A model generated the notes under the pieces. It was not told where the DNA came from, did no database searches, and was given only the letters and a program-made list of their open reading frames with translations. 40,017 bases of DNA. It comes from Candidatus Gemmiger faecigallinarum. GTDB lineage: Bacteria > Bacillota > Clostridia > Oscillospirales > Ruminococcaceae. Position numbers and translations under genes: made by a program. The stretch's first letter is position 1; each line of letters starts with the position of its first letter. The DNA lies in assembly GCA_019120395.1 (NCBI GenBank), contig DWVD01000050.1, positions 1 through 40,017 on the forward strand. The letters are read 5' to 3'. Shown piece by piece: positions 3,934 to 22,479 of the stretch.

Positions 3934-3982
3934 GGGTCACTGTCCTTTCTTTCCAAAATGCATCCTCCTTGGGGGGCAGAGG

Positions 3983-5137: not shown

Positions 5138-5173
5138 GGCTCTCACCTTTCTCTTTCCGCCCGGGCGGCCGGT

Positions 5174-7104: not shown

Positions 7105-7113
7105 TTGGGCACC

Positions 7114-8025: not shown

Positions 8026-8041
8026 ATGATCACCTCACCCC

Positions 8042-8962
8042 TCATTCGTATTTGACGCGCGGGTCGATCACAGAGTACATCAGGTCGACCAGAAGGTTCA
8101 CGACGCCGACAAAGACCGAGATCACCAGGATGCAGCCCATGATGATCGGCATGTCCCGGGTCTTGACCGCGCTTGTCAGATAGGTGCTGATGCCGGGGAT
8201 GGCGAACACGGTCTCGATCACCACCGAGCCGCCCAGGACGCCGGCAAAGGAGGAGCCCAGCCCGGTGACGATGGGCAAAAGCGCGTTGCGCAGCGCGTGC
8301 TTCATGATCACGACCACCTCGCTGGCGCCCTTTGCCCGCGCGGTGCGGACATAGTCCGAGCGGATCACGTCAAGCACCCAGGTGCGTGTGGAGCGGATGT
8401 TGTTGGCCACGCTTGCCGCGCAGACCGCGATCACCGGCAGCACATAGTGTTGCAGCGTCCCCATGCCGTAGGCCGGGAACCAGCCGGTCTCCAGGCTCAG
8501 GTTGATCTGCAGGATGATGCCAAGCCAGAAGTTTGGCATGGCGGCGAACACCAGGCACAGGAAGGTGAGCAGGTAGTCGGGCAGGGTGTTGTGCTTTACC
8601 GCGGTCAGCGTGCCCAGCGGGATGCTGATGATGCTTGCGATCAGGGTGGAGTAAATGCCAAGGGAAAGGGTGTAGGGCATCCGGCTCACGATCTCGTCGA
8701 TCACCGGCTGCTGGGTGAACCAGGACACGCCGAAATCGCCGTGCAGGATGTTCCACATATAGGTCAGATACTGCACAAGGATCGGTTTGTCCAGGCCGAG
8801 TTCGACCCGCAGCGCCTCGACCTCCTCCGCCGTGGCCTCCGGCGGCGAGAGCAGCTCGGCGGGGTCGCCGGGGACCAGCGACATGATCAGGTAGATGAAC
8901 AGCGTGATTCCGATGATGGTGGGGATCAGCATCAAAATCCGCTTGGCGGTGTATTTCAGCAT
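8042..8962 (-). CDS. ABC transporter permease (OppB/DppB-type)
   Basis: This 306-residue protein has the OppB/DppB N-terminal helix (ILMLIPTIIGITLFIYLIMSL) with the following VPGDPAE motif, six membrane helices, and the EAA loop at TARAKGASEVVVIMKHALRN. An AGGAGG site lies 6 bases before ATG 8962; the longer open frame upstream has no translation signal. The gene follows the binding-protein gene after a 207-bp gap holding a strong hairpin, which probably lowers permease expression relative to the binding protein. Confidence 0.93.
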   Translation of the reverse strand: MLKYTAKRILMLIPTIIGITLFIYLIMSLVPGDPAELLSPPEATAEEVEALRVELGLDKPILVQYLTYMWNILHGDFGVSWFTQQPVIDEIVSRMPYTLSLGIYSTLIASIISIPLGTLTAVKHNTLPDYLLTFLCLVFAAMPNFWLGIILQINLSLETGWFPAYGMGTLQHYVLPVIAVCAASVANNIRSTRTWVLDVIRSDYVRTARAKGASEVVVIMKHALRNALLPIVTGLGSSFAGVLGGSVVIETVFAIPGISTYLTSAVKTRDMPIIMGCILVISVFVGVVNLLVDLMYSVIDPRVKYE

Positions 8963-9113
8963 GGGGCGCCTCCTATCACAGCAGGGCAGATGGATTTTGG
9001 CCGGCCTGGAACGCGCGGCCTGCAAAGCGCAGAGGGGACAGAGCGAAAAACGGATTCCGTTTTCTCTCTGCCCCCTCCGGTCCTGTTTGCGGAAATGGTT
9101 GGGAGCTGCCTTC

Positions 9114-9149
9114 CCCAAAGCGGGCGCAGGCCTGCGCCTGCCTTGGGGG
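9114..9149 (-). other. Intercistronic hairpin between binding-protein and permease genes
   Basis: A near-perfect inverted repeat (about 18 bp per arm, with a 14-bp perfect palindrome GCGCAGGCCTGCGC at its centre) lies 20 bp past the stop of the binding-protein gene. There is no T run on the minus side. It is better read as an mRNA-stabilising or partial attenuation structure than as a full terminator. A second, imperfect stem lies around 9036-9075. Confidence 0.6.
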
Positions 9150-9169
9150 CGGGTCCTGTCAGAGCGGAC

Positions 9170-10780
9170 TCAGCTCCAGCTCAGGTTGGCGATGTAAAAG
9201 TCGGAGACCGGGCTTGCGGTGACGCCCTGCAGCTCCTTGTTGTAGGCGACCGCGTTCACAGAGGCGTACAGCGGGATCTGGTACGCGTTTTCAACGCCGA
9301 AAGACATCAGGTCGGCCATCAGCTGCTTGCGGGCGTCCGGGTCCTGCTCCACGGCGATCTGGGCGTAGTAGTCTTTCAGCACCTGGTAATCCTGGAAGTA
9401 TTCCTCCGGCTTGTAGGTGGTCTCCATATCCGGGTTGTAGCTGGCGCCGGGGTTGCAGAAATCGAACCAGACGTTGGTGTTGTCGGAGATCATCAGGTCG
9501 GCGGTGGCGTTGCGCTGTGCCGAAGTGAAGGTGGCGTTGTCGCAGGGGACGACCGAGGTGTTGATGCCCACCTCCGCCAGCTGGCCCTGGATGATCTGGG
9601 CGGCCTTCTCGCAGGTGGAGCCGGTGATCACGTAGATCTCCAGTTCCCGGCCGTCGTAGTTGGAATTGGCCAGATACTCCCTGGCCGCGTCCTGGTCGTA
9701 GGGGATCACGGTGTAGGTGCCCTCCTCCGGGGAGGTGGGGAAGCCGGTGACGACGTCGATGTCCAGCGTTTTGCCGTAACCGAACAGAACGCCGTCCAGC
9801 AGGTCCTGTTTGTTGATGGCGCTCTGGATCGCCATGCGCAGGTTCAGGTCGTCGCGGATATAATCGTTGACCCAGCCAAAGGAGATCAGGGTCCGGGTGG
9901 CGGAGTCCGCCTGCGTCCAGGTGGCGATGGAATTTTCGGCCAGCCGCGTGCAGGAGGCCAGGTCCGCGTTGACGATGACGTCGGCGTCGCCGGATTCCAG
10001 CGCGATGAACTGGGTGCTGACGTTGCTGATGATGGTGATCTCCACATCCTTGATGGAGGGAGCGCCTGCCCAGTAATCCTCGTTGGCTTCCAAAACGATC
10101 TTTTCGCCGCTGGTCCGGGAGACGAACTTGTAAGCGCCGGTGCCGACCGGATGGGCGGCATAGCCGTCGGCGCCGCCCACCTCCTCGTAGTAATCCTTGC
10201 TGATGATGACGCCCATCTGGGTGCAGAGCATGTTCAGGAAAGCGGGGCTGACATGGGACAGGATCGCCTTGCAGTGGGTGTCGTCAATGACCTCGCCGCC
10301 GGCAAGGCCGTTGAGCATGGAGGTGGCGGAGGTGGGGTTCTCTTTCAGGGCGGTCTCCCAGCTGAACACCACGTCCTCGGCGGTCATTTTCTCGCCGGTG
10401 TGGAAGTAAACGTCGTCGCGCAGGGTGAAGGTCCACTCCAGGCCGTCCGCCGAGACCTCGTAGTCGGTGGCGAGCCAGGGGATGGGGTTGCCTTCCTCGT
10501 CCAGGCGGAACAGCGTGTCGTAGACCTGCTGGAAAAAGACGCCGTCCCGGGTCTTGTCGGCGCCGTAATCCACATGCAGCGGAAAGACGCCCAAGGGGTC
10601 GGTGTAGGTCACCACGTTCAGCGAGTCTTTGGCGCCGCCGGACTGGCCGGTCTGCGCCGCGCCGCCGCTTTCCGAGACCGCGCCGCCGCTGCTGCCCGAA
10701 CCGCAGCCGGCCAGCAGAGAGCCTGTCAGTGCCAACGCCAGGATCAGGCTGGACGCCTTGCGTAAGCGTGTGCTTTTCAT
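9170..10780 (-). CDS. Family-5 extracellular solute-binding lipoprotein
   Basis: This 536-residue protein begins with a lipoprotein signal: basic start MKSTRLRK, hydrophobic core, and lipobox LLAGC with Cys26. A Gly/Ser-rich linker follows. The body fits the SBP_bac_5 family (NVVTYTDPLGVFPLH, TFTLRDDVYFHTGEKMTAEDVVFSW, HPVGTGAYKF, ALRNA-like helices later). It would be anchored outside the membrane and deliver solute to the permeases downstream. An AAGGAGG site precedes ATG 10780; the extension to 10822 lacks one. It is the first gene of operon 1, behind a promoter whose -10 box overlaps a GntR-type operator. Family members bind peptides, opines, nickel or glycosides, so the ligand is open. 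Confidence 0.92.
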   Translation of the reverse strand: MKSTRLRKASSLILALALTGSLLAGCGSGSSGGAVSESGGAAQTGQSGGAKDSLNVVTYTDPLGVFPLHVDYGADKTRDGVFFQQVYDTLFRLDEEGNPIPWLATDYEVSADGLEWTFTLRDDVYFHTGEKMTAEDVVFSWETALKENPTSATSMLNGLAGGEVIDDTHCKAILSHVSPAFLNMLCTQMGVIISKDYYEEVGGADGYAAHPVGTGAYKFVSRTSGEKIVLEANEDYWAGAPSIKDVEITIISNVSTQFIALESGDADVIVNADLASCTRLAENSIATWTQADSATRTLISFGWVNDYIRDDLNLRMAIQSAINKQDLLDGVLFGYGKTLDIDVVTGFPTSPEEGTYTVIPYDQDAAREYLANSNYDGRELEIYVITGSTCEKAAQIIQGQLAEVGINTSVVPCDNATFTSAQRNATADLMISDNTNVWFDFCNPGASYNPDMETTYKPEEYFQDYQVLKDYYAQIAVEQDPDARKQLMADLMSFGVENAYQIPLYASVNAVAYNKELQGVTASPVSDFYIANLSWS

Positions 10781-10851
10781 TGTGTTTTCCTCCTTGTGGT
10801 TTATAAATCGGCCGGGCTCCAACAGCAGGGGTCCGGTTGGAAACTGATTGT

Positions 10852-10880
10852 ATTGTATACAATTTTGCGGGGTTTGTAAA
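10852..10880 (-). promoter_or_regulatory. Promoter of transporter operon with overlapping GntR operator
   Basis: On the minus strand, TTTACA (10875-10880) and TACAAT (10852-10857) are 17 bp apart. The perfect palindrome ATTGTATACAAT (10852-10863) covers the -10 box, so a bound repressor would block RNA polymerase. The same TGTATACA core is found at the promoters of operon 2 and gntR. Confidence 0.8.
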
Positions 10881-11075
10881 TCTGCATTTTAGATAAGTTT
10901 TCATGCGCGCAGATAGATATACTACACAAAGATTTGTCAATTTTACGGAATTGGCTGGTAAAATGACAAAAAATTCCTGCACGATTTTGTCCTGTCTGCC
11001 CAAAAAGCGGCTGCCGCGCCCGGCCATTGCGCGGCGGGGCGGGGATTGGGGCGGGATCGGGCAGGATTTCCTGTT

Positions 11076-11085
11076 TTGTATACAC
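11076..11085. promoter_or_regulatory. Second, distal GntR-type operator
   Basis: TTGTATACAC at 11076-11085 has the same TGTATACA core. Its centre is about 223 bp upstream of the promoter-proximal site at 10852-10863, close to 21 helical turns, so DNA looping between two repressor dimers is possible. It also lies upstream of the divergent PH-domain gene. Confidence 0.5.
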
Positions 11086-11206
11086 TTTTGTAATCTTTTT
11101 GGAATGATTTCACAGGGGAAGGGGGCCGGGCGCAGGGGCGGACCGCGGCCGCTCCTGCGGGCGAAATCGAGGAGAGCTACTGGATGCGCCGGACGGCCGC
11201 GGCGGA

Positions 11207-11235
11207 TTGACAAGCCGGAGGAACCATGCTATACA
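11207..11235 (+). promoter_or_regulatory. Promoter of the PH-domain gene
   Basis: TTGACA (11207-11212) and TATACA (11230-11235) are separated by 17 bp, and the start codon lies 33 bp further on. No TGTATACA operator overlaps it. Confidence 0.75.
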
Positions 11236-11268
11236 TGGACTGAAATACACCGCGGGGAGGGCAAAGCG

Positions 11269-11799
11269 ATGGCACAGACCAGTCAAACCGGGACCGGACG
11301 CTATTATTCGGGGATGCTGCTGCGGCAGCATCCTTGGCTGAAAGAGCGCCTGCGGGGGGAGGAATACCCCGTTGCCTTTTCCTACCGGAAACCGGAGCTG
11401 GCGGCCGGGATCTCGCTGGCGTTCATCGGCGGCTTTGCCATTTTGGACGCGCTGTTCCACTTGCCCGCCTTTGGCAGCGCATGGATCGGGCTTCTGGTCA
11501 TGGCGGGCGGCGCGGCGCTGCTGTACGGCGGGGTGTGGGCGCTTTGCTTTGCGGGGCGCGCCTATCTTCTGGTCACGTCGGAACGGGTGGTGTACCAGAA
11601 GGTGGATCTGCTGGGCCGGCCCGGCAGGCAGATCTCCATCCCGCGCGGCGAGATTCGCCGGGTACGCTTTTTGAAAAGCACGGTCATGTACCGCATGGGG
11701 CGCAGCGACGGCGGCATTGCGATGCTGCTGAAAAACGGCAGGACGGTGTCCGTTTCCAATGTGCGCGATGCGGAAAACATTTTCGGCGCGCTCCGCTGA
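11269..11799 (+). CDS. Membrane-associated bacterial PH-domain protein
   Basis: This 176-residue protein has two membrane segments near residues 38-58 and 65-90 (ISLAFIGGFAILDALFHL and WIGLLVMAGGAALLYGGVWALCF). A C-terminal domain follows with the bPH_2-like pattern YLLVTSERVVYQKVDLLGR...ISIPRGEIRRVRFLKST and an end segment resembling NVRDAENIF. Such proteins are small envelope-associated scaffolds of unknown function. ATG 11269 is preceded by a GGGGAGGG site. It has its own promoter and terminator, and is read opposite to the two operons around it. Confidence 0.75.
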   Translation: MAQTSQTGTGRYYSGMLLRQHPWLKERLRGEEYPVAFSYRKPELAAGISLAFIGGFAILDALFHLPAFGSAWIGLLVMAGGAALLYGGVWALCFAGRAYLLVTSERVVYQKVDLLGRPGRQISIPRGEIRRVRFLKSTVMYRMGRSDGGIAMLLKNGRTVSVSNVRDAENIFGALR

Positions 11800-11908: not shown

Positions 11909-11941
11909 AAAAAATGGCCGGACGGGGGAGCGTCCGGCCAT
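11909..11941 (-). terminator. Terminator of operon 2
   Basis: An 11-bp GC-rich stem (11914-11924 with 11931-11941) is followed on the minus strand by six Ts (11914-11909). It starts 20 bp past the stop of the glycerate kinase gene. Confidence 0.9.
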
Positions 11942-11960: not shown

Positions 11961-13193
11961 TCAGCGCACCAGCGCCACCGCCACGTCGTTGACATTGGTG
12001 CCGGTGGGGCCGGTGACGATCAGTCCGCCCACCGCCTGCAGGGCGTGGTAGGCGTCGTTGTCGGCCAGAACCTGGTGGATATTCAGCCCTTTGGCGGCCA
12101 GCGCCGCTTTGGTGCCGCCGTCCACATAGCCGCCCGCCGCGTCGGTGGGGCCGTCGGTGCCGTCGGAGCCGACGCTGAACACCGCGGCGTCCGCCATGCC
12201 GGCGATGCCGTCCGCGGCGGCCAGCGCCAGCTCCTGATTGCGGCCGCCCAGGCCGTGGCCGGTCAGGCGCACCACCGTCTCGCCGCCGGCCAGAAAGGCC
12301 AGCGGTTTGCCCGGGGTCTCGTGAGTCTTGAGCACCGAGGCCAGGAAGCTGCCCGCCTCCCTGGCCTGGCAGCAAAGCCGGTCGGTCAGCAGGATCGGTT
12401 CGTAGCCCAGCCCGCGGCAGGCTTCCGCCGCCGCGGCGCACAGTTCCCGCACACTGCCGGTGACGCACGTCTCCACGTTGTCCAGCCGCTTGGGCGTCTC
12501 CTGCCGCAGGCAGGCCAGGGCCTGTTCGCTCAGGCGAAGGCGGTATTTTTCCACCACGGCCAGCGCGTCGGCGCAGGTGGTGGAGTCGGGGCAGGCGGGG
12601 CCGGAGGCGATCATGTCCAGCGGGTCGCCGATGATGTCCGACAGGATGACCGCGCAGACCTTGGCCGGGGCGCAGGCCAGGGCAAAGCGGCCGCCCTTGA
12701 CGCCGGACAGGCGCTTGCGCACCGTGTTCATCTCGACGATGTCGGCGCCGCAGGCCAGCAGCTGGCCGGTGACGTCCTGCAGCTCCCCGGCGGGGATCAG
12801 CGGCTGCTCAAACAGCGCGCTGCCGCCGCCGGACAGCAAAAACAGCACGGTGTCGCCGGCGCAAAGGCCGCGCACCAGTTCCAGCGCCCTGCCGGTGGCG
12901 GCAAAGCCGTTTTCGTCCGGCACCGGGTGGCCGGCCTCAAAGCAGGCGCAGCGGGGCAGTTCGCCCTTGACATGGCCGTATTTGGTCACCACCACGCCGG
13001 CAAAAAGCCGGTCGCCCAGGCAGTTTGACGCGGCGCGGGCCATCTGCCAGGCCGCTTTGCCGGCGGCCACCAGCAACACCCGGCCGGGGAATGTCCGGCC
13101 TTTCAGCGCGCGGCGGACGGCCTCGTCCGGCAGCACCGCATGGATGGCCTGCCGGACGATGGCGTCGGCGTCGGCGCGCAGGCGGCTGTTCAT
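11961..13193 (-). CDS. Glycerate 2-kinase (MOFRL/DUF4147 family)
   Basis: This 410-residue protein matches the GckA/TtuD-type glycerate kinase family, which makes 2-phosphoglycerate from D-glycerate and ATP. Visible family features are [13 protein letters not shown] and [12 protein letters not shown] near the N-terminus, [13 protein letters not shown] (about 119-131), [14 protein letters not shown], and the MOFRL domain with [13 protein letters not shown] and [20 protein letters not shown] site precedes ATG 13193. It is the last gene of operon 2, 25 bp after tartronate semialdehyde reductase, whose product is its substrate. It is cytoplasmic. Function is confident; hydroxypyruvate reductase, an older label for this family, is less likely. 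Confidence 0.9.
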
Positions 13194-13218
13194 GGCGACC
13201 CCCTCCTTCTCTGCGGGT

Positions 13219-14100
13219 TCAGCGGCCGATTTGGATGTCGGCCAGCTTTTCGTAGTAATGGGCGATGCAGCTGTGGTCGTGCTGGCCTTCGCCCTGGCTG
13301 TGCAGCCATTGCAGGACCTCCTGCACCCCGGCGGTCATGGGGACCGGCGCGCCCACGGCATGGGCGCAGTCCAGCGCGTTGTTCAGGTCCTTGATGTGCA
13401 GGTCGATCTTGAAGCCGGGCTTCTCGTCCCCGGCGATCATCATGGGGGCCTTGGCGTTCATGACGGTGGAACCGGCCAGGCCGCCGCGGATGGCCTCGAA
13501 CACCAGCTGCGGGTCGACGCCCGCCTTCTGGGCCAGGGTCAGCGCTTCGGCCAGGGCCTGGATGTTGCAGGCCACGATGATCTGGTTGGCCAGTTTGGTG
13601 GTGTTGCCTGCGCCCACCTCGCCGCAGCGAACGACGCTGGCGCCCATGGCGCCCAGCAGATCTTTGAACTTGTCAAAGACTTCCTGTTTGCCGCCCACCA
13701 TAAAGCTCAGGGTGCCGTCGACGGCTTTGGGCTCGCCGCCGGAGACCGGGGCGTCCAGCATGTCGATGCCCTTGGCCTCCAGCACCGCGGCGATCTCCTT
13801 GCTGGCCACCGGGTTGATGGAGCTCATGTCGATGAACACCGAGCCGGGTCTCATGTGGGCGGCCACGCCGTCCTCCCCCAGCATGACTTCCCTGACCTGG
13901 GGGGAGTTGGGCAGCATGGTCAGCACCACGTCGCAGGTTCCGCCGATCTCCGCCTGCGTGGCGGCGGCCGCGCCTGCGGCCACGACCTCGGCCACGCTGG
14001 CCTCGTTGCGGTCGTTGACCGCCAGCTGGTAGCCGGCTTTCAGCAGGTTCTTTGCCATGGGCTTGCCCATGATGCCCAGTCCGATCAGTCCGATTTTCAT
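13219..14100 (-). CDS. garR: Tartronate semialdehyde reductase (2-hydroxy-3-oxopropionate reductase)
   Basis: This 293-residue protein reduces tartronate semialdehyde to D-glycerate with NAD(P)H. It has the beta-hydroxyacid dehydrogenase layout: Rossmann motif [16 protein letters not shown] at the start, DAPVSGGE substrate loop, and [11 protein letters not shown] with the catalytic Lys. The run of similarity to GarR/GlxR ([19 protein letters not shown]) favours that substrate over 3-hydroxyisobutyrate. The frame is open far upstream (to 15096), but MKIGLIGLG at ATG 14100 with AAAGGA upstream is clearly the start. It sits directly before glycerate kinase. Confidence 0.88.
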
Positions 14101-14180
14101 AATAACACGTCCTTTCTGAAATGGTAAGTGGAAAAGTTGCGGATATCGGTCGGTTGAAACAAGACGGCACCGCCCGGAGG

Positions 14181-15260
14181 TCAGCCGGACGCCTGCCCCA
14201 GCGCCTGCGCCATGTCCCGGTGCAGCAGTTCGGCCTGCGGGTAGCGGCCCAGCCGGTTCATAAAGCCGTGGGCCATGCCCCGGTATACGGTAAGGCAGAC
14301 CGGCACGCCGGCCGCGGCCAGCCGCGCCGCATAGGCCCTGGCCTGCCGGGTGAGGGAGTCGAACTCGGCGCAGAAAAGCCAGGTGGGCGGCAGGCCCGCG
14401 AAGTTTTTGTCCAGAAGCGGCGAGGCGTCGGGCGAAAGATCCTCCCGGTCGGTCCGGGTATAGAGGCGGAACGCGTCCATCGTCTGCTTTAAAGAAAGGA
14501 TCTCGGCCTGGGCCCAGCGCCGGTGTTCCTCGCAGATCTGGTAGTCCGAGAGGGAAAACCGGTACCCCGGCAGGTCCGGTTCCCGCTGGCTCAGCACCGG
14601 GTACACCAGCAGCTGGCCTTTCAGTAGGCCGGTGCGCATATTTCTGTCCCGCCGGGCGCAGGCGGCCGCCAGGTTCCCGCCCGCGCTGTCGCCGCCGATC
14701 AGTACGTGGCTGCGGTCTATGCCCAGCCGCTCCGCGTTGCGGCACACCCAGCGCAGGGCGCACCAGGCGTCCCGGGTGGCGCAGGGGAAGGGATATTCCG
14801 GCGCAAGGCGGTATTCCACGCTGAACACGGCCGCCCCGCTGAGCTGGGCCAGCAGACGGGTGGAATGCGCGGCGCTGCGGCGGGAACCGAACCGGAACCC
14901 GCCCCCGTGCAGGTACACCAGCGCAGGGCGCGCCGCCGCGCCCGCCGCCGTGCGGTAACAGGTGATGGGAAGCTCTGTCTGGCCGTCGGCCGCGCAAAGC
15001 TCGGTCTCTGTGACCGGCTCGCTGGTCAGGTCCCGGTCTGCGGGGGGCATCGCGCGCAGGGCGGCATAATCGCCGGCGCGCAGCGCCTGCCCCCACAGCG
15101 CGGCGGCCGTCCCGCCGCCGTTTTGCAGATCGGCCAGCGTTTCGGGCGACAATACCCCGCGCCGGGGCTCGCCCGGGATCCCCACATCCACGCAGACCAC
15201 GCCGTTTTCCCGCCGCACGGTCCGGGGAAAGCGCCCGGCCTCAGCGCCGCACATACGCAT
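14181..15260 (-). CDS. HSL-family alpha/beta hydrolase (esterase/acetylhydrolase)
   Basis: The protein has up to 359 residues. It carries the hormone-sensitive-lipase motifs: HGGG oxyanion loop (YLHGGGFRFGS), nucleophile elbow GGDSAGG, acid in CAEFDSL and His in MAHGF. These enzymes hydrolyse small acyl esters in the cytoplasm. The start is unsure. ATGs at 15260 and 15254 overlap the end of the kinase gene (stop at 15241) but lack a good ribosome-binding site, so translation may be coupled, or begin later. The first ~100 residues before the HGGG motif are less conserved in look. In this operon it could remove an ester group from a pathway intermediate. Confidence 0.8.
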   Translation of the reverse strand: MRMCGAEAGRFPRTVRRENGVVCVDVGIPGEPRRGVLSPETLADLQNGGGTAAALWGQALRAGDYAALRAMPPADRDLTSEPVTETELCAADGQTELPITCYRTAAGAAARPALVYLHGGGFRFGSRRSAAHSTRLLAQLSGAAVFSVEYRLAPEYPFPCATRDAWCALRWVCRNAERLGIDRSHVLIGGDSAGGNLAAACARRDRNMRTGLLKGQLLVYPVLSQREPDLPGYRFSLSDYQICEEHRRWAQAEILSLKQTMDAFRLYTRTDREDLSPDASPLLDKNFAGLPPTWLFCAEFDSLTRQARAYAARLAAAGVPVCLTVYRGMAHGFMNRLGRYPQAELLHRDMAQALGQASG

Positions 15261-16434
15261 AGGTGCGGCGGGCGATGCCCAGCTCCTCGTTGGTGGGGAT
15301 GGCAAACACCCTGACCCGGGACCCCGGGCCGGTCAGCTCCTGCCGGACGCCGTGGCAGGCGGCGTTCTTTTCCAAGTCCAGCACGACGCCCAGAGCGCCG
15401 AGCCTTTCGCAGACGAGACGGCGCAGCAGGCCCGAGTTTTCCCCCATGCCGGCGGTAAAGACCAGGTGATCCAAGCCGCCCAGGTCCAGGTAAAACGCAC
15501 CTATATAATGTACGATGCCGCTGACCAGCACGTCGATGGCCAACTGCGCGCGGCGGTTGCCGTCCCTGGCTGCGGCCTCGATATAGCGCAGGTCGCCGCT
15601 GACGCCCGAGATGCCCAGCAGGCCGCCTTTCTGCTCGAAGCCTTCGTGGATCTGCGCGTCGGTCAGGCCCTCGTGGCGCAGGAACTCGTACAGATCGCAG
15701 TCCATATCCCCCACGCGGGTGGCGTGGATCAGCCCGGACTGCAGCGACATGCCAAAGCTGGTGTCGATGCTTTTTCCGTCCCGGATGGCGCAGACCGAGG
15801 AACTGCCGCCCAGATGGCAGGAGATCGCCCGGTAGCTGCCGCCGCTGATCTGGTCAAGCACGCCGGCGATGTATCCGTGCGAGGCGCTGTGGTAGCCCAG
15901 CCGCTGCACGCCGTATTTCTCGTACCATTCATAGGGAACGCCGTAAAGGCGGCGTTCCAGCGGGATGTCCCGGTGGAACCCGGTCTCGAAGCAGCCCAGA
16001 AAGACCGCGTCGGGCAGCGCCTGACGCAGCATGCCGATGGCCTGCAGGTAGCCGGTGTTGTGCAGCCGCGCCAGCGGCAGCCAGGCGCGCATCCCCTCGA
16101 TGACCTCGTCCGTCAGCTCGTGGTCGCCGAAATGGCCTTTGGACAAGGTGGTCTTGAAGCCCACCCGCTCGATCTGGCGCACCGAGTCCAGCGCGCCGGC
16201 CTGCGCGCCGGTCAGGCAGGCAAGGAACCGCCGGATGCCGTCGCCGTGATCCGGGACGGCGGCTTTTTCCTCGACGATACGGCAGCCGGACTGCAGATTT
16301 TCGTACTGGAAGATCGCGTCGTCCAGGCTGCCGACCCGTTCCACCCGGCTCTGCGCCAGCGCGTGGCCGGCGGGCATGTCGTACAGCTTGAACTTCAGCG
16401 AGGTGCTGCCCACATTGCAGACAAGGACCTTCAT
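15241..16434 (-). CDS. Divergent acetate-kinase-family (ASKHA) kinase
   Basis: This 397-residue protein aligns along its length with AckA. Conserved residues include Asn7, Ser10, Ser12 and Lys14 (NVGSTSLK), His125, His182, His207, Arg240 and the FTAGMGENS motif. Several active-site positions differ: Lys94 where AckA has Arg91, Glu150 (FETGFH) where AckA has catalytic Asp148, SASH in place of GTSH, and Gly210 in place of Asn211. It is therefore an acyl- or carbamoyl-phosphate kinase of altered specificity rather than plain acetate kinase. I chose ATG 16434 because AAGGAGA lies 6 bases upstream; ATG 16440 abuts it. It follows FdrA and may capture the phosphorylated product of that step. Confidence 0.8.
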   Translation of the reverse strand: MKVLVCNVGSTSLKFKLYDMPAGHALAQSRVERVGSLDDAIFQYENLQSGCRIVEEKAAVPDHGDGIRRFLACLTGAQAGALDSVRQIERVGFKTTLSKGHFGDHELTDEVIEGMRAWLPLARLHNTGYLQAIGMLRQALPDAVFLGCFETGFHRDIPLERRLYGVPYEWYEKYGVQRLGYHSASHGYIAGVLDQISGGSYRAISCHLGGSSSVCAIRDGKSIDTSFGMSLQSGLIHATRVGDMDCDLYEFLRHEGLTDAQIHEGFEQKGGLLGISGVSGDLRYIEAAARDGNRRAQLAIDVLVSGIVHYIGAFYLDLGGLDHLVFTAGMGENSGLLRRLVCERLGALGVVLDLEKNAACHGVRQELTGPGSRVRVFAIPTNEELGIARRTYAYVRR

Positions 16435-16478
16435 ACACATTCTCCTTTCCGCCCGGGCGGGCGTATGGGCGCGGCGGT

Positions 16479-16661
16479 TTACATACCCAGCGCCGCCAGC
16501 ACTTCCTGCATCTGGCGGTCGCCGCCTGCGACCGGCCGCCAGTCCACCTGGACGACTTCCACGTTCTGTTTTTCCAGCGCTTCGCCAAACAGCCGGGGCC
16601 CGATGTTGACCGCCACCAGCTGCGAATCGAACAGCGCCTGGATCTTGTCGGTATTTGTCAT
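16479..16661 (-). CDS. Small FdrA-associated protein
   Basis: This 60-residue protein begins with ATG 16661, which overlaps the stop of fdrA (ATGA). The sequence (IGPRLFGEALEKQNVEVVQVDWRPVAGGD) matches, from memory, the short 'fdrA domain protein' that is found as a separate gene or as a fused segment beside FdrA/DUF1116 proteins. It has no membrane segment and is likely a subunit or small partner of the FdrA complex. Its biochemical role is unknown. Confidence 0.75.
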   Translation of the reverse strand: MTNTDKIQALFDSQLVAVNIGPRLFGEALEKQNVEVVQVDWRPVAGGDRQMQEVLAALGM

Positions 16662-18202
16662 TTGCTGTCCCTTTCCTGTTTCAATTGAATGATCCTGGCG
16701 GCAAGCTGGCCGGCCTGCCGGTTGGACCGGCAGACATAAACGCCGGCGTCCCGCAGCTTCTGCCGCTGCAGATCGACGTTTTGCAGGTCGGCGTCGGTGC
16801 CCAGCACCGAGCAGACCACCGCCAGCTTCCCGCCGCGGGCGCGGGCCTGCTCCATGGCGCGGGTCAGCGCCGGCAGGGTGACGCCGGCGGGGTCGATGTG
16901 TTCCGGCGGGGTCAGGATGAAATCCAGCAGGATCACCGCGGTTTCAGGGTCAAGCCCCTCGCGGGCGATCAGCGGCAGCCGCATGGACGGCTCCAGCGTG
17001 GGATGCGGGCGGCCGCGGGTAAATTCCTCCTCGCCGCTGTCGATCACCGTGTTGCCCACGCTGACGCGGGAGTCCGCCAGACGCAGCTCCGGCGAGAGCG
17101 GGCAGTTGGAATGGATGCCGCCGATCACCGGCTGCATCGTCTGCATCACCTCGTCGCAATAGGTGCCGCCGCAATAGACGCCGCGCACGTATTTCTGCTG
17201 CGGGCTCATGCCCTCGACCGCCTCGCGCGCCATCGCCGTCAGCGCCTCGTCGCTGTCAAAGTCGATCTGCCGGCCGATCAGCGAGAGCGCCTGCCGGGCG
17301 CAGCCGTCCAGGTCGCCGGCCCACAGCGCGCCGGAAGCCTCCACCGCCGCCCGGTCCGCCCCCATGAAGCAGGCGACCACCGGCTTTTTGCAGCGGCGGA
17401 TGCGGTCGGTCAGGGTCTGCAGCACGCCGGGGTCCGGCTTGCGGGAGATCAGGACGATGTACTCGGTGTCGGGGCCGTTCTCCAGCGCGTCGATGCCCAT
17501 CAGCATGGTGATGCCGCCGACTTCCTCCTTCAGGTCGTTGCCGCCGGTGCCGATGGTCTGCGACACGCCGCTGCCCGCCTCGTGCAGGAAGGCCGCCACA
17601 TGCTGGATGCCGCACCCGGACGCGCCGCAGATGCCAAAGGGACCCCGGTTGTTGATGCTGGACAGCACAAAGGCCGCGCCGTTGATGTTGGCGACGCCGC
17701 AGTCCGGCCCCATGCACAGCAGGCCTTTTTGCCGTGCCAGCTCTTTCATCTCGCGCTCCTGCGCCAGCGGAACGTTGCTGCTGAACACGATGCAGTGCAG
17801 CCCCAGCTCCAGCGCCTGCTTTGTCACCTCGCAGGCATATTCGCCGGGTACGGCGATGGAGCAGATGTTGGCGCGCGGTTCGGCGCGCACCGCCTCCTCC
17901 ACGGTGCGGAAAGCCGGTTTCTGCGCTTCGGTGGGCGGCGGGGCCTTTTTGGTTTTGGCCATTGCGGCCTCGAACGCCTCGCGGCTGGCCGCCCGCACCG
18001 CGATGACGAAATCGCCCTCGCCAGCGCCGCGCGCCTGGTCGTCCGCAAGGCCCAGTTCCTCCAGCGTCTGCTTGCCGGACGCGGTCGCCATGCCGGCGTA
18101 GGCGCTCTCGACGCCCTCGCAGTCCATCAGCACCGACATGGTAAAAAGGGAGGCGAGCGAATCCACATAGGTGTCTTTCTGCAAAATGGTAAACAGGCTC
18201 AT
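16658..18202 (-). CDS. fdrA: FdrA/AllF-type acyl-CoA-synthetase-like protein
   Basis: This 514-residue protein has the succinyl-CoA-synthetase-like build of FdrA. It has a CoA-binding Rossmann part (CMGPDCGVANING, GICGASGCGIQHVAAFL, GTGGNDLKEEVGG) and a C-terminal CoA-ligase-like part (GVYCGGTYCDEVM...). The E. coli homologue FdrA (AllF) is a subunit of oxamate carbamoyltransferase AllFGH in anaerobic allantoin breakdown, which makes carbamoyl phosphate and oxamate from oxalurate. ATG 18202 overlaps the stop of the DUF1116 gene (ATGA) with GGAGG upstream, so the two are made together. No AllH (DUF2877) gene is present in the window. Confidence 0.88.
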   Translation of the reverse strand: MSLFTILQKDTYVDSLASLFTMSVLMDCEGVESAYAGMATASGKQTLEELGLADDQARGAGEGDFVIAVRAASREAFEAAMAKTKKAPPPTEAQKPAFRTVEEAVRAEPRANICSIAVPGEYACEVTKQALELGLHCIVFSSNVPLAQEREMKELARQKGLLCMGPDCGVANINGAAFVLSSINNRGPFGICGASGCGIQHVAAFLHEAGSGVSQTIGTGGNDLKEEVGGITMLMGIDALENGPDTEYIVLISRKPDPGVLQTLTDRIRRCKKPVVACFMGADRAAVEASGALWAGDLDGCARQALSLIGRQIDFDSDEALTAMAREAVEGMSPQQKYVRGVYCGGTYCDEVMQTMQPVIGGIHSNCPLSPELRLADSRVSVGNTVIDSGEEEFTRGRPHPTLEPSMRLPLIAREGLDPETAVILLDFILTPPEHIDPAGVTLPALTRAMEQARARGGKLAVVCSVLGTDADLQNVDLQRQKLRDAGVYVCRSNRQAGQLAARIIQLKQERDSK

Positions 18203-19461
18203 TCCTTGCCGGCCTCCTCCGTCATGATCTCGCGGATCGCCAGCAGGCCCTGCCGGAAACAATCCATCGGCAGCTTGGCCGAACCCATCGTGCCCTGGCC
18301 GCCCGTTTTCAGGGTGCCGCCGCCGTGGCTGGTGGGCAGGATGTTCAGCCCGACCACCTTGCGAGCGTCCACCCCGACCGGGAAGCCCTGCCCGCCGTCC
18401 CACGGGATGGGAGCAAACCGGTGTTCGGCCACACAGACCTTGCGGGCGTCGGCGGAGCGCTGCAGCGCATCGGCAAAGGTGGAGCCGGTCAGGATCACGT
18501 AGCCTGGCCCCGCGCTGGCAGACATGCCGCCCAGGCCGTAGACCTCGGTGACGCAGCTGTCGCCCAAAAAGCCCAGCAGGTCGTCCCGGGTGTAGTTGGG
18601 CTTGAGGAACAGCCCCTCGATCAGCGGCGCGTCCACGGTAAACCAGCGCGCCCCGGTCCCGGCAAACCGGGCGCCGAATTTGACGCCGTTGCCGCCCATG
18701 GCCACCATCACCGTGCTGAAAGGCACCTTTTTCACCGAAGCGAGCACGCTCTCGGCGCCGGCCATCATCACATGCAGAAAGAACCGGTCGTTGGCGGCAA
18801 GCTGGTTGACGATCTCGTCCCGGTGGTCGAACTCCATCTCCATCATGGTCTGGATCATCTGCAGCGCCATGTGCATCGAGGCGGCGGGCTGGCGGTTGTG
18901 GTTTTCGTCGCCCATGCCGGCGGTCTTGCTCATCACGCCGATCAGGTCGATGCCGCCCATGCGCCGCACCGTCTGCCCCAGCGCCGGGCCGTAATGGTCG
19001 CGGAACCAGACCAGATCGCGCTGGACTTCCTCGTTGTAAAAGCCCCAGCGCAATACGTTCTGTTTGTTGCCGGGATGCACCGCGCAAAATCCTCTGCCGC
19101 CGTAGGTCTTGTCCTCCACCACGCAGACCGGCATCGAGGACGACGTGGCCATCGCCGCGCCGCAGGCGGCGTCGTGGTCCTGGGCGGATTCCACCCGGAT
19201 CTTGCCGCCGGTCACCAGCTGCCAGGCCTCCCCGGCGGTTTTGGCGCGCTGCTCGTAGATCAGCGCGCCGCAGATGGCGGTCCTGACCGGCGCGGGAATA
19301 TCTTCCGGCGCGATGGGCGGACCGGCGATCAGGATGGTGTCCGGCGTCATGCCGGGGATCACATCGCCGGCGGGCTGCACGTCCACCCAGACCGGGCGGC
19401 CCCGGGTCAGGATCTCGGCGGCCTTCCGGTTTGCCTGTTCGATCGTCTGCTTGACATCCAT
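18199..19461 (-). CDS. DUF1116 protein (AllG/YlbE family)
   Basis: This 420-residue protein is close to the length of E. coli YlbE (AllG), a subunit of oxamate carbamoyltransferase. Distinctive segments are GALIYEQRAKTAGEAW, a central QDHDAACGAAMATSSSMPV, NKQNVLRWGFYNEEVQRDLVWF, GMGDENHNRQPAAS, and a glycine-rich LPTSHGGGTLKTGGQGTMG near the C-terminus. A GGAGG site precedes ATG 19461. It lies 56 bp after the GHL6-type gene and overlaps fdrA. Whether this protein pair uses oxalurate/oxamate or another carbamoyl or acyl compound cannot be settled from sequence. Confidence 0.85.
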   Translation of the reverse strand: MDVKQTIEQANRKAAEILTRGRPVWVDVQPAGDVIPGMTPDTILIAGPPIAPEDIPAPVRTAICGALIYEQRAKTAGEAWQLVTGGKIRVESAQDHDAACGAAMATSSSMPVCVVEDKTYGGRGFCAVHPGNKQNVLRWGFYNEEVQRDLVWFRDHYGPALGQTVRRMGGIDLIGVMSKTAGMGDENHNRQPAASMHMALQMIQTMMEMEFDHRDEIVNQLAANDRFFLHVMMAGAESVLASVKKVPFSTVMVAMGGNGVKFGARFAGTGARWFTVDAPLIEGLFLKPNYTRDDLLGFLGDSCVTEVYGLGGMSASAGPGYVILTGSTFADALQRSADARKVCVAEHRFAPIPWDGGQGFPVGVDARKVVGLNILPTSHGGGTLKTGGQGTMGSAKLPMDCFRQGLLAIREIMTEEAGKE

Positions 19462-19517
19462 TGTTTGCGTCCTCCTTGCTTTGTGTGATGGGTCCTTTGC
19501 GTACGGTACGGAAGCGG

Positions 19518-21503
19518 TCACCGGCAGGTGATGCGGTAGCCGGCGTAGCAGCCGGGGCACCGCAGGGTCAGTTCGGAGCCGGAGACGGGCTGCGGCTCCA
19601 GCCCGTCCGCCGTCAGCAGTTCCAGCGACGCGGGCTGCCTGCCGGTCACGGTCAGGCGGATGCCCTCCAGCGGCAGCGGCTTTGCCATGGTGACGCCGTT
19701 GAAGCCGCTGAGGTTGATCAGCTGCGCCAGATATTCGTCCGGGCCGGTGCGGTGGAAGAAAACGTCCACGCAGCCCGGCGCGTCGGTCTCAAAGGGCTGC
19801 CGCATCGGCCGCACCCGGTCCAGCAGATCCAAAAATATATCCTTGTGGTCCTCGTAGCCGAGGGTATAGTACAAGGTGCCGGGCAGCCAGGGCAGGTACA
19901 GGTTTTTGCCGCCGCAGACCGCCGCCATCCGGTCGCCGGTCAGCCTGTGGCCGTAGGCGCGCTCGGGCGGGCCGTAGGGGGCTGCGCCCACCAGCGGCAG
20001 CAGGCCTTCGGCGCCGGTCAGCTCCATCCGGTAGCTGTCCAGGTGCAAAAACACCCAGTCCCGCTGCGGGAAGGAGCGGAACACCTCCTTGGGCTGGGTA
20101 AGCAGGTAGCTGGCCGCCAACGGTTCCACCTTCCCGCGGATGCGCACCCCGAACAGCCGCTCCAGCAGCTCCGGCGCTTCCTGGAAGGTGCGGCCGGTGC
20201 CCACAACGGCGGCGCTGGTGGAAAGCAGCGCTTTGCGGAGCCGGGGCCCGGGGGCGCGGGGCAGGTCGGGCAGGATGACGACGTCGTACTGGTCCAGCCG
20301 GTCGGCAAATTCCTCTATGGCGCTGAGGATCACCGTGTCAAAGGGAATGTGCCGCTCCTTGAGCATGTGCACAATGCCGCGGTACTCTTTTTCGTTGTAC
20401 ATCAGGTTGGTGCTGAACTGATAAAAGGGCCGCGGGTTGACCAAAAGCACCCGCGCTGTGCTCTGCAGCCGGGCAAACAGCGTCTCGTGCCGGGCATGCA
20501 GCCGGAACGCCTCGCCGACGCCCTCGAAATTGGCGCGGTCGGGATAATCCTTGAACGAGCCGACGATGCACCAGTCCAGATTGCCGCCCACCGCCGCGCT
20601 CTGGTACAGCCGGATCTGGTTCAGCCAGGTGGACACGCCCATAAAGCGGTATGGGATGTCCACCGCGTTAATGGCGCAGTCGCTGGGGACCTTGGCGGGG
20701 AAAGTGGTCTTGATGGCCGCGGGGTCCTCGGAGCCGGAATAAAGCCAGAAATGCTTTGGCGTTATGGCCGACTGCGCCTCGCACCGCACGATGTCGATAC
20801 CGTCGTCGCTGTATGTGCTCAGCGGGACGTTGGGGGCAATGCTCTTGATCAGGCTGCGGACTTTGTGCAGCATGTCGGCCACCGTGTATACCTTGAACTC
20901 CTCGTACCGGCGGTATACCGGGTCGCCGTCGTCCTCCACGGTGGGCAGGGTCAGCCCGCCCGACCACTGGAAGAACCGCCTGCGGCAGTTTTCGCACTGG
21001 CAGATGCCCACGTAGTTTCCGTCGTAGTCCGTGGTGGGGTAGCCGGGGATGTTGAAGAAGATGCCGTCCAGCGGATAGCGGGTCAGGGCTTCCTGCAAAA
21101 CTTCCAGAATACGCTCCTGCTGGTAGGCGCCGTTGACGCAGACCGCCGCGCAGTCCTCAAAGTAGGCGGGGGAGCCGTCGGCCCGGCGGGTGAACCAGTC
21201 CGGGTTGGTTTCCAGGTACGCCTTGTGCACCTTGCTGACGTCGAACCGCGCGATCACCCGGATGCCCGCCCTGTGGCATTTTTCAACGATCTCGCCGAAT
21301 TTGTCGCCCTGCAGGTAGGGGGTGGGGCGCTGGCAGGCAAGCCGGGAAGGCCCAAAGGCGCTGATGCCGCCGCAGCCCACCTGCACCACGTTGGCGCCCA
21401 GCTTTTTCAGCATCGCCACCTCGTAATCCACATCCATCGCGCCGTCGACGTCCCGCAGGTTGTTCTGCACCATCCGGAACGGCTTCTCCATCCACCAGTC
21501 CAT
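19518..21503 (-). CDS. GHL6-type glycoside-hydrolase-like protein (paralogue 2)
   Basis: This 661-residue cytoplasmic protein is a paralogue of the one at 1906-3933. It shares the opening WWMEKPFRMVQNNLRD, the barrel strands GANVVQVGCGGIS and AGIRVIARFDVSKV, the segment DGIFFNIPGYP, and the identical run ICQCENCRRRF (Cys168/170/173). The middle shows a trimerisation/GATase-like domain (RVLLVNPRPFYQF, VILPDLPRAPG, AVVGTGRTF). ATG 21503 has GGAGG upstream; the longer frame to 21623 runs through the promoter and is discarded. It is the first gene of operon 2, downstream of a promoter overlapped by a 16-bp palindromic operator. It may cleave a glycosidic or similar bond in the imported compound. 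Confidence 0.7.
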   Translation of the reverse strand: MDWWMEKPFRMVQNNLRDVDGAMDVDYEVAMLKKLGANVVQVGCGGISAFGPSRLACQRPTPYLQGDKFGEIVEKCHRAGIRVIARFDVSKVHKAYLETNPDWFTRRADGSPAYFEDCAAVCVNGAYQQERILEVLQEALTRYPLDGIFFNIPGYPTTDYDGNYVGICQCENCRRRFFQWSGGLTLPTVEDDGDPVYRRYEEFKVYTVADMLHKVRSLIKSIAPNVPLSTYSDDGIDIVRCEAQSAITPKHFWLYSGSEDPAAIKTTFPAKVPSDCAINAVDIPYRFMGVSTWLNQIRLYQSAAVGGNLDWCIVGSFKDYPDRANFEGVGEAFRLHARHETLFARLQSTARVLLVNPRPFYQFSTNLMYNEKEYRGIVHMLKERHIPFDTVILSAIEEFADRLDQYDVVILPDLPRAPGPRLRKALLSTSAAVVGTGRTFQEAPELLERLFGVRIRGKVEPLAASYLLTQPKEVFRSFPQRDWVFLHLDSYRMELTGAEGLLPLVGAAPYGPPERAYGHRLTGDRMAAVCGGKNLYLPWLPGTLYYTLGYEDHKDIFLDLLDRVRPMRQPFETDAPGCVDVFFHRTGPDEYLAQLINLSGFNGVTMAKPLPLEGIRLTVTGRQPASLELLTADGLEPQPVSGSELTLRCPGCYAGYRITCR

Positions 21504-21568: not shown

Positions 21569-21608
21569 ATATTGTATACAATATATCCCAAAAGGACAGC
21601 TTTGTCCA
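21569..21608 (-). promoter_or_regulatory. Promoter of operon 2 with GntR operator
   Basis: On the minus strand, TGGACA (21603-21608) and TATATT (21580-21585) are 17 bp apart. A perfect 16-bp palindrome, ATATTGTATACAATAT (21569-21584), covers the -10 box. It is the best operator of the three regulated promoters and lies 66 bp before the first start codon. Confidence 0.85.
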
Positions 21609-21727: not shown

Positions 21728-22399
21728 TTATTTGGTTTCCAGATATTTCTGCAGCTTGCTCCGCAGGCTTTTCTGGCTCATATAAAAATGGATGTCGGCC
21801 TGTTTGGCGGCCAGCTCGGGGTCGTGCAGCTCCAGGCCGCGGATGATGGCCTCGTGCTCCTCGTACGAGTGGGCAAGACGCTGGGGCTGCATCGGGATGG
21901 TGGAAGCGAACAGGGCCTGCCGCATCAGAAGGTTCTGGATGTACTCGACGACGCAGGGGTTGCCGCTGATGCGGGCGATGGTCAGGTGGAACTGGTTGTC
22001 CAGATTGGTGGTGGTCTCCTTCTGCTCCAAAAAGTCCCGGTTGATCCCCCGCAGTTCCTCAACCTGTTCCGGCGTGATGCGCAGCGCGGCTTCGCGGGTG
22101 CTGAGCACCTCCAGCACGGTGCGGGTGTCGGTCAGGTAGATCAGGTCCTGTTCGGACAGCTCCACCACCTGCACGCCGCAGCGCGGGATGTATTTTACCA
22201 CGCCGTTGTTCTGCAAAAGGCGCAGGGCTTCCCGCACGGGGGTGCGGCTGACGTTGAACTGCTTGCAAAGCTCCACTTCGCGGATCGGCTTGCCCGGGCG
22301 GAAAACGCCCTGATGGATCATGTGCACCACACCGTCCACGATCTGCTGCACCGAAACCCGCTCTTTCCTGTTCTGCATGCCGGCCTCTGGCGTTTCCAT
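21728..22399 (-). CDS. GntR-family regulator, FadR/FCD subfamily
   Basis: This 223-residue protein has an N-terminal winged helix (about 15-75) with PIREVELCKQFNVSRTPVREALRLLQNNGVV, and a C-terminal all-helical FCD ligand domain. The FCD domain has the metal-ligand pattern in DNQFHLTIA, SYEEHEAII and ADIHFYMSQ. A GGAG site precedes ATG 22399. Members usually repress catabolic operons and are released by a carboxylate ligand. The TGTATACA sites at the promoters of gntR and both operons fit its DNA specificity class, so autoregulation and control of 1906-21503 are inferred. Ligand unknown. Confidence 0.9.
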   Translation of the reverse strand: METPEAGMQNRKERVSVQQIVDGVVHMIHQGVFRPGKPIREVELCKQFNVSRTPVREALRLLQNNGVVKYIPRCGVQVVELSEQDLIYLTDTRTVLEVLSTREAALRITPEQVEELRGINRDFLEQKETTTNLDNQFHLTIARISGNPCVVEYIQNLLMRQALFASTIPMQPQRLAHSYEEHEAIIRGLELHDPELAAKQADIHFYMSQKSLRSKLQKYLETK

Positions 22400-22442: not shown

Positions 22443-22479
22443 GTGTATACAATTTACACGGATTTGAGGGTTTCGTCAA
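22443..22479 (-). promoter_or_regulatory. gntR promoter with GntR operator
   Basis: On the minus strand TTGACG (22474-22479) and TAAATT (22451-22456) are 17 bp apart. The operator-like GTGTATACAA (22443-22452, core TGTATACA 22444-22451) begins inside the -10 box, which suggests autorepression. Confidence 0.8.

Follow-up and report, generated by a model that had tools for sequence, protein, structure and literature searches.

An eight-gene operon occupies the minus strand at positions 11961-21503 of contig DWVD01000050.1 of Candidatus Gemmiger faecigallinarum, analysed here as a stretch of 40,017 nucleotides (the window). It encodes homologues of AllF (FdrA) and AllG (DUF1116), subunits of the E. 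coli oxamate carbamoyltransferase AllF-AllG-AllH, together with an acetokinase-family kinase (hereafter KIN), a GHL6-domain hydrolase, an esterase-like protein, a tartronate semialdehyde reductase (GarR) and a glycerate 2-kinase (GlyK). The window is not alone in this combination, since clusters of this type turn up in numerous genomes from the gut and rumen; in them, KIN is linked to AllF and AllG and has diverged from ordinary acetate kinases. The reading favoured here, which is put forward tentatively, is that the operon is a substrate-level-phosphorylation module for a sugar-derived acid, in which AllF and AllG (AllFG) would split a 2,4-dioxo acid with phosphate and KIN would make ATP from the acyl phosphate. 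The initial annotation had remarked that the combination matches no known pathway, which holds as far as a search of the open-access literature reached, where no description of this cluster type was found. It had also thought of a carbamoylated substrate, an idea that is not supported and is probably wrong, since the kinase belongs to a distinct acetokinase-type subfamily and clusters free of AllH recur in so many gut and rumen genomes.

The E. coli complex AllFGH interconverts oxalurate + Pi and oxamate + carbamoyl phosphate, the latter serving carbamate kinase for the formation of ATP (PMC11326118). The window resembles this system (allFGHK) in that adjacent AllF and AllG homologues are accompanied by a kinase gene whose product could use an acyl phosphate. 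It differs in having an acetokinase-family kinase in place of carbamate kinase, a split AllF and no allantoin genes in the operon, and AllH was found neither in the window genome (82.85% complete, 5.3% contamination) nor in the related loci of the same AllG clade, clade A (0/36). What might such a complex act upon? Oxalurate (-OOC-CO-NH-CO-NH2) has a 2,4-dioxo acid as its carbon isostere, just as oxamate has pyruvate. With CH2 in the place of NH, the reaction becomes acylpyruvate + Pi -> pyruvate + acyl phosphate, so that an acyl-phosphate kinase would be needed and not a carbamate kinase. It is therefore conceivable that AllF, its separately encoded C-terminus (AllFc) and AllG, without AllH, carry out -OOC-CO-CHX-CO-R + Pi -> -OOC-CO-CH2X + R-CO-OPO3, and that KIN, by inference an acyl-phosphate kinase, uses R-CO-OPO3 + ADP to form ATP.

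Two variants of this scheme can be envisaged, and for both we infer the reaction, its substrates and its direction. In a second clade of AllG loci (clade B), an IlvD-type dehydratase and dehydrogenases are candidates for making dioxo acids from sugar acids; IlvD would yield 3-deoxy substrates (X = H), with pyruvate as the leaving product. In clade A, to which the window belongs and where no dehydratase is present, the 3-hydroxyl would be kept (X = OH), and the leaving product would be hydroxypyruvate or tartronate semialdehyde. From there, GarR and GlyK, joined in relatives by a D-2-hydroxyacid dehydrogenase (D2HDH), could lead on to 2-phosphoglycerate; R-COOH would likely be glycerate or another small hydroxy acid. 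An Opp-type importer, the GHL6 hydrolases and the esterase may supply the substrate, and a GntR protein may control both the operon and that of the importer through the palindrome TTGTATACAA.

More tentatively still, AllFG-type complexes may in general be dioxo-acid phosphorolases, in which phosphate, and not water, cuts an acylpyruvate-like acid at the bond next to the acyl carbonyl, so that its energy would be kept as acyl phosphate and then as ATP; the E. coli oxalurate reaction would then be the nitrogen special case, the carbon version would operate in the sugar-acid catabolism of anaerobes of gut and rumen, and a subfamily of hydroxyacyl-phosphate kinases would be dedicated to it. If true, anaerobic sugar-acid breakdown would gain a further site of substrate-level phosphorylation, along with a phosphorolytic C-C cleavage of beta-dicarbonyl acids, of which we know no example and none was met in a limited search of the open-access literature. 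The reaction thus assigned to AllFG and KIN is not known for this enzyme family, and it would supply a function for the 68 AllG rows of types A and B, which family models now name after oxamate carbamoyltransferase.

The proposed chemistry touches two groups of known pathways. Non-phosphorylating L-fucose and sugar-acid pathways hydrolyse 2,4-diketo-3-deoxy acids to pyruvate and a hydroxy acid. The dehydrogenase step of such a pathway is the subject of PMC11199699, and the FAA hydrolase family cleaves acylpyruvates with water (PMC7116474). These pathways share with the present proposal the type of intermediate and, in clade B, a dehydratase and dehydrogenases, but here phosphorolysis is proposed instead of hydrolysis, and FAA_hydrolase (PF01557) is absent from the window genome and from 30 of the 41 clade A and B genomes (present in 11). 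The D-glucarate/galactarate and glyoxylate pathways end in tartronate semialdehyde reductase and glycerate kinase. The last two enzymes of the window operon are identical in kind; in contrast to those pathways, the Pfam and NCBIfam matches of the operon include neither an aldarate dehydratase nor an aldolase or glyoxylate carboligase, and the genome has no glyoxylate carboligase (gcl) over the cut-off.

KIN shares the Pfam family of the acetate and propionate kinases AckA and TdcD over its full length; the window protein scores marginally under the cut-off of TIGR00016 (292.3 versus 293.4). The KIN proteins of clade A and B loci form a single clade (support 100/100) against 15 AckA/TdcD rows, namely 13 AckA that share genomes with KIN, and the E. 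coli proteins AckA and TdcD; four of the 53 loci with a KIN match (L062, L073, L094, L112) were left out as weak or short, which leaves 49. In M. thermophila AckA numbering, the changes R91K, D148E and N211G occur in 49/49 KIN (as K94, E150 and G210 in the window) and in 0/15 AckA/TdcD, all of which read R, D and N, whereas the six catalytic positions N7, K14, H123, H180, R241 and E384 are kept in all 49. Judged from these alignments, the K/E/G kinases are an acetokinase subfamily defined by three changed active-site residues. Asp148 has a role in acetate kinases. Arg91 is listed with their strictly conserved catalytic residues (PMC11717252), and Asn211 touches the ATP beta-phosphate, its replacement having reduced activity (PMC4390882), which makes N211G a nucleotide-side change.

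KIN is not the sole acetokinase of clade A genomes, because 24 of 26 carry a further AckA-like gene (21 full-length at 472-535 bits, three in contig pieces), one having KIN only and one none, and a housekeeping acetate-kinase role of KIN is therefore rejected. For 13 of the 21 full-length further acetokinases, and for pieces from genomes G000 and G449, the AckA signature was seen in the sequence, the others being assigned by score. In four Opitutales/Verrucomicrobia metagenome-assembled genomes (MAGs; kinase loci L159-L162, in the genomes of L100, L111, L099 and L110), for which completeness is not given, the K/E/G type is the only acetokinase-family gene found, and these genomes seem to be without an ordinary acetate kinase.

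The linkage of KIN to AllFG emerges from the distribution of AllG, which is present in 24 of the 391 sampled genomes of the class. A wide genome-collection scan with eight AllG queries gave at least 557 relatives, the best 80 of which were kept. Joined with further loci, E. coli and the window, they gave an AllG tree of 97 rows (5 of 102 loci, without an AllG row longer than 340 aa, were left out; the midpoint root serves for drawing only), which splits into clade A with 44 rows including the window, clade B with 24 and clade C with 29 including E. coli, with supports of 100/100, 100/97 and 100/99; these are called here the window type, the sugar-acid type and the ureide type. Clade A comes mostly from MAGs of Oscillospiraceae, Lachnospiraceae, Erysipelotrichaceae and Sphaerochaeta, with one of Anaerolineaceae, several of them labelled as gut or rumen. 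Co-occurrence (Table 1) was counted in loci of at least 10 kb, shorter ones being omitted (8/44 in A, 3/24 in B, 3/29 in C) and near-duplicates kept (L033/L058; L037/L123, from genomes G233/G479; L055-L057 with L084).

Table 1. Genes found beside AllG in loci of at least 10 kb, by AllG clade
Gene	Clade A	Clade B	Clade C
KIN (local)	32/36	14/21	0/26
AllH	0/36	11/21	21/26
IlvD-type dehydratase	0/36	19/21	0/26
FAD_binding_2 flavoprotein	0/36	18/21	0/26
GarR	25/36	0/21	0/26
GlyK	16/36	0/21	0/26
D2HDH	20/36	0/21	0/26
GarR, GlyK or D2HDH, at least one	26/36	0/21	0/26
GHL6	31/36	0/21	0/26
Esterase	29/36	0/21	1/26

Clade B loci further hold a short-chain dehydrogenase/reductase (SDR; 18/21), with only generic FabG/glucose-dehydrogenase matches in PDB, a metallo-beta-lactamase-fold (MBL) hydrolase (13/21), a KDPG aldolase (11/21) and a PfkB sugar kinase (9/21), and those of clade A a GPH-type symporter (16/36), a GH2 protein (11/36) that comes closest, under the cut-off, to the NCBIfam model of the beta-glucuronidase LacZ4, and an LrgB-type membrane protein (five loci). 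The Anaerolineaceae locus L063 combines a clade A AllG with a GH2 gene and two FAD_oxidored genes, and neither AllF nor KIN was matched in it. In Sphaerochaeta-type loci, a family of ~400-aa proteins without a Pfam match at 1e-5 adjoins AllG (L087 5096-6301 and relatives).

The prediction that genomes whose A or B locus is without KIN should hold it elsewhere was checked on the 11 loci of at least 10 kb that are without KIN. Four of them (L034, L053, L078, L087) are cut off by the end of their contig immediately after AllG or AllF; G449 and G486 have a K/E/G kinase next to a piece of AllF, together probably the missing remainder of the cut loci, and in G331 and G491, also with cut loci, no K/E/G kinase was found in the genome. 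Of the seven uncut loci, all but L063 belong to genomes that encode a K/E/G kinase at another place. Oligosphaera ethanolica DSM 24202 (G472, with the clade B locus L096) and G482 each have two AllG loci, one with IlvD and the other with KIN and AllH (L167 2651-3910, L166 2649-3908), the two lying ~50 kb apart in Oligosphaera; in G474, G483, G484 and G485 the kinase has no AllF or AllG within ~1.4 kb, and these alone are cases of a kinase separate from AllFG.

The AllF of the window scores 350 bits on NF004760, under the cut-off of 433, and covers model positions 2-499, the 60-aa open reading frame (ORF) that follows covering 501-554, so the coding sequence of AllF is split into two parts that overlap, a point absent from the initial annotation. 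The C-terminus is split off, or fused to AllG, in relatives as well: the AllFc piece is fused to the AllG N-terminus in L035 9101-10513, L036 8192-9607 and L037 9338-10756, and joined to AllF in E. coli. This set of arrangements suggests that AllFc sits at the AllF-AllG interface. AllF also has Pfam matches to CoA_binding (3.9e-5) and Ligase_CoA (2.1e-19) and matches solved succinyl-CoA ligase alpha chains (best 2.1e-13), and the predicted AllG structure (pLDDT 90.7) has 3clq, of unassigned function, as its sole structural match. When fixed sites were compared over 25 A, 19 B and 23 C rows, A and B agreed against C at three AllG and two AllF sites, among them AllG 257 (G/G/R in A/B/C), which adjoins the invariant Asn258, AllG 380 (G/G/T) and AllF 182 (S/S/N).

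Ordinary allantoin use, which according to the initial annotation would be the case if allH, gcl and allantoinase were encoded elsewhere under the same regulator, can be ruled out as far as the window genome goes: AllH (PF11392) had no match, and the best scores for carbamate kinase (30 bits versus 358), gcl (297.5 versus 711) and allantoinase (195.8 versus 358) stay under the cut-offs; hydantoinase was not searched genome-wide, and a Pfam scan of the operon showed no AllH, allantoinase or hydantoinase domain. Among the 35 genomes of the genus, AllG occurs in that of the window and in none of the 34 others, which marks the operon as an accessory, patchily held trait. Could AllFG nevertheless phosphorolyse a carbamoylated sugar acid or ureide, with KIN as a non-homologous carbamate kinase? 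AllF and AllG are homologous to proven transcarbamylase subunits, and AllH is often retained in clade B (13 of 16 genomes, one of them listed twice), which shares many fixed residues with clade C. Set against this, carbamate kinase passes the cut-off in 6/6 ureide-type genomes but in only 8/26 of clade A and 1/16 of clade B, 24 of the 26 clade A genomes are without AllH, as is the window operon, which has no allantoinase or hydantoinase domain either, and none of the 26 clade C loci has KIN, all of which makes the carbamoyl alternative distinctly unlikely.

It is also conceivable, though unlikely, that AllFG and KIN form an acid-activating pair, KIN making an acyl phosphate with ATP and AllFG acting as a phosphotransacylase that moves the acyl group onto CoA, so that the acid could be used or reduced. 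Acetokinases are reversible, and the resemblance of AllF to succinyl-CoA synthetase would suit such a role, but the reaction characterised for AllFGH is formulated with phosphate and involves no CoA, and neither an acyl-CoA reductase nor a CoA transferase was seen among the annotated genes of the window operons or the scanned clade A family representatives. Rather unlikely is phosphorolytic acyl transfer at another bond, such as an O-acyl or N-acyl group of a glycoconjugate that would give acetyl phosphate or similar, GarR and GlyK then serving the unrelated sugar part. The HSL-type esterase and GHL6 glycosidase-like proteins in the operon, a set kept in the related locus L051, would fit, yet the link of clade B to IlvD, the flavoprotein and SDR, and the changes of KIN relative to acetate kinases, would be left unexplained. 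Last, the cluster might reflect operon history alone, as an ordinary glycoside-utilisation operon ending in glycerate with a degenerate acetate kinase; the loss of Arg91 in every aligned KIN and the presence of this kinase type in an AllFG-free operon speak for it, whereas the six retained catalytic residues, three changes that are fixed and not drifting, and the association of KIN with AllF/AllG in both clades and in the second copies of G472 and G482 render it very improbable.

The proposal of a dioxo-acid phosphorolase coupled to KIN has itself to contend with a number of observations. No enzyme forming a 2,4-dioxo-3-hydroxy acid was identified in clade A, GlyK is present in fewer than half of the clade A loci, and the window itself has no D2HDH match. 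The mutual exclusion of IlvD and GarR/GlyK may be a single event, because each AllG clade is one lineage; the gene-content contrasts track the clades, so few events may lie behind them. The activity of KIN could be weak or differently directed, given that R91 counts as catalytic in acetate kinases and that changes at Asn211 lowered activity there. Fixed sites that unite B and C against A are more numerous than those uniting A and B (five in AllG, at 130, 274, 339, 342 and 378, and five in AllF, at 16, 18, 19, 201 and 254); clade A is the most diverged, and the residues by themselves do not show a common substrate of A and B. G472 and G482 say little about a locus without KIN, because their kinase sits in a second AllG locus, and the genome of L063 (G456) combines its clade A AllG with no PF00871 gene at all.

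A further difficulty is that G082, G115 and G142 carry a K/E/G kinase in an operon free of AllFG. They surfaced when a KIN profile was run over the 391 genomes of the class and the best 30 loci were read, so that lower-scoring K/E/G kinases may be missed: the signature occurs in ten genomes, seven of the eight with A- or B-type AllG (all but G331) plus these three, the remaining loci being an intermediate K/D/G in G064 and 19 that read R/D/N. The operon in question (L205 8966-16040, also L206 and L207) holds genes for a branched-chain-type ABC importer, a SAF plus galactarate/altronate-dehydratase pair, GntR, a D-2-hydroxyacid dehydrogenase and lactate-racemase-like and HMGL-like proteins, and may perhaps represent another pathway that yields an acyl phosphate; G115 and G142 additionally hold an AllG that scores like the ureide type. 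An exclusive tie of KIN to AllFG is ruled out by these loci, and the kinase type seems to have a wider part in hydroxy-acid or sugar-acid metabolism, a role that fits a hydroxyacyl phosphate substrate but weakens the link to AllFG alone.

Within the window (Table 2), all eight genes stand at the place and on the strand first noted, including the glycoside-hydrolase-like protein (PF14871) and the acetate-kinase-family kinase (PF00871). Three junctions overlap (by 4, 4 and 14-20 nt) and the largest gap is at most 80 nt, in keeping with the single operon described in the initial annotation; its single promoter is not established, because besides the sigma-70-like site 5' of the operon (21608-21580) a weaker minus-strand promoter-like site lies directly before the reductase gene (14127-14099). 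Both, like some weak hairpins inside the operon, are consensus matches. The GHL6 protein of the operon matches in phmmer the GH151 alpha-L-fucosidase 6tvk (5.6e-6) over residues 49-157 only (~110 residues), and the second GHL6 protein has no match to it. GarR passes two NCBIfam equivalog cut-offs; GlyK has both its DUF4147 and MOFRL domains, with NCBIfam equivalog matches under the cut-off. For the esterase, an alternative start is possible at the in-frame ATG 15260.

Table 2. Coordinates of the window operon, the neighbouring operon and their putative control elements
Feature	Position	Strand	Evidence
GHL6-domain hydrolase, GH151-like in part, operon gene 1	19518-21503	-	PF14871 1.9e-22
AllG (DUF1116), clade A type	18199-19461	-	PF06545 1.4e-65; PDB relative 3clq; tree
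AllF (FdrA), succinyl-CoA-synthetase-like, without C-terminal ~55 residues	16658-18202	-	NF004760 2-499/555; 3dmy FdrA 4.4e-58
AllFc, 60-aa ORF, separately encoded AllF C-terminus	16479-16661	-	NF004760 501-554/555, 1.9e-10
KIN, acetokinase-family kinase, separate subfamily	15241-16434	-	PF00871 6.5e-88; K94, E150, G210
HSL-type alpha/beta hydrolase (esterase or lactonase)	14181-15254	-	PF07859 7.1e-57
Tartronate semialdehyde (2-hydroxy-3-oxopropionate) reductase, GarR	13219-14100	-	NF008592 459.7 (cut-off 397); TIGR01505 411.9 (cut-off 340.75)
MOFRL-type glycerate 2-kinase, GlyK	11961-13193	-	PF13660 1.6e-78 (DUF4147); PF05161 1.2e-35 (MOFRL)
Intrinsic-terminator-like hairpin 3' of operon	11914-11941	-	11 pairs, 8 GC, T run; consensus match only
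Palindrome TTGTATACAA 5' of operon, putative GntR operator	21572-21581	.	perfect; also perfect in L051 at 7881
Palindrome TTGTATACAA 5' of importer operon	10853-10862	.	perfect; also perfect in L051 at 18582
Palindrome, one mismatch, 5' of GntR gene	22443-22452	.	motif match
GntR/FCD-family regulator	21728-22399	-	PF07729 8.4e-20; PF00392 2.6e-16; 65% identity in L051
Solute-binding protein (SBP), family 5, Opp/Dpp type	9170-10780	-	PF00496 9.2e-73; 80% identity in L051
Opp-type permease B	8042-9118	-	PF00528 4.3e-41; 83% identity in L051
Opp-type permease C	7114-8025	-	PF00528 4.7e-33
Opp-type ATPase D	6112-7104	-	PF00005 3.6e-30
Opp-type ATPase F	5174-6127	-	PF00005 9.1e-33
MBL hydrolase	3983-5146	-	PF00753 8e-17
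Second GHL6 protein with GH42M trimerisation domain	1906-3933	-	PF14871 1.2e-33; PF08532 1.3e-9

The operon belongs to a larger putative regulon at 1906-22399, which the initial annotation had likewise not mentioned, together with a second operon (1906-10822) that joins an Opp-type importer to the MBL-fold hydrolase and the second GHL6 protein. The palindrome stands perfect at both operons, with a further one-mismatch copy at 11076, and 11 matches with at most two mismatches were found versus 3.1 expected; the GntR protein would presumably bind it. In the Ruthenibacterium MAG locus L051, 11 window proteins are syntenic at 65-88% identity (GntR, the eight operon genes, SBP and permease B, where the locus ends), and its two palindromes lie before the GHL6 and SBP genes, the same two places as in the window. 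Between the two window operons, a plus-strand ORF without a Pfam match (10903-11799, up to 298 aa) reads away from the importer.

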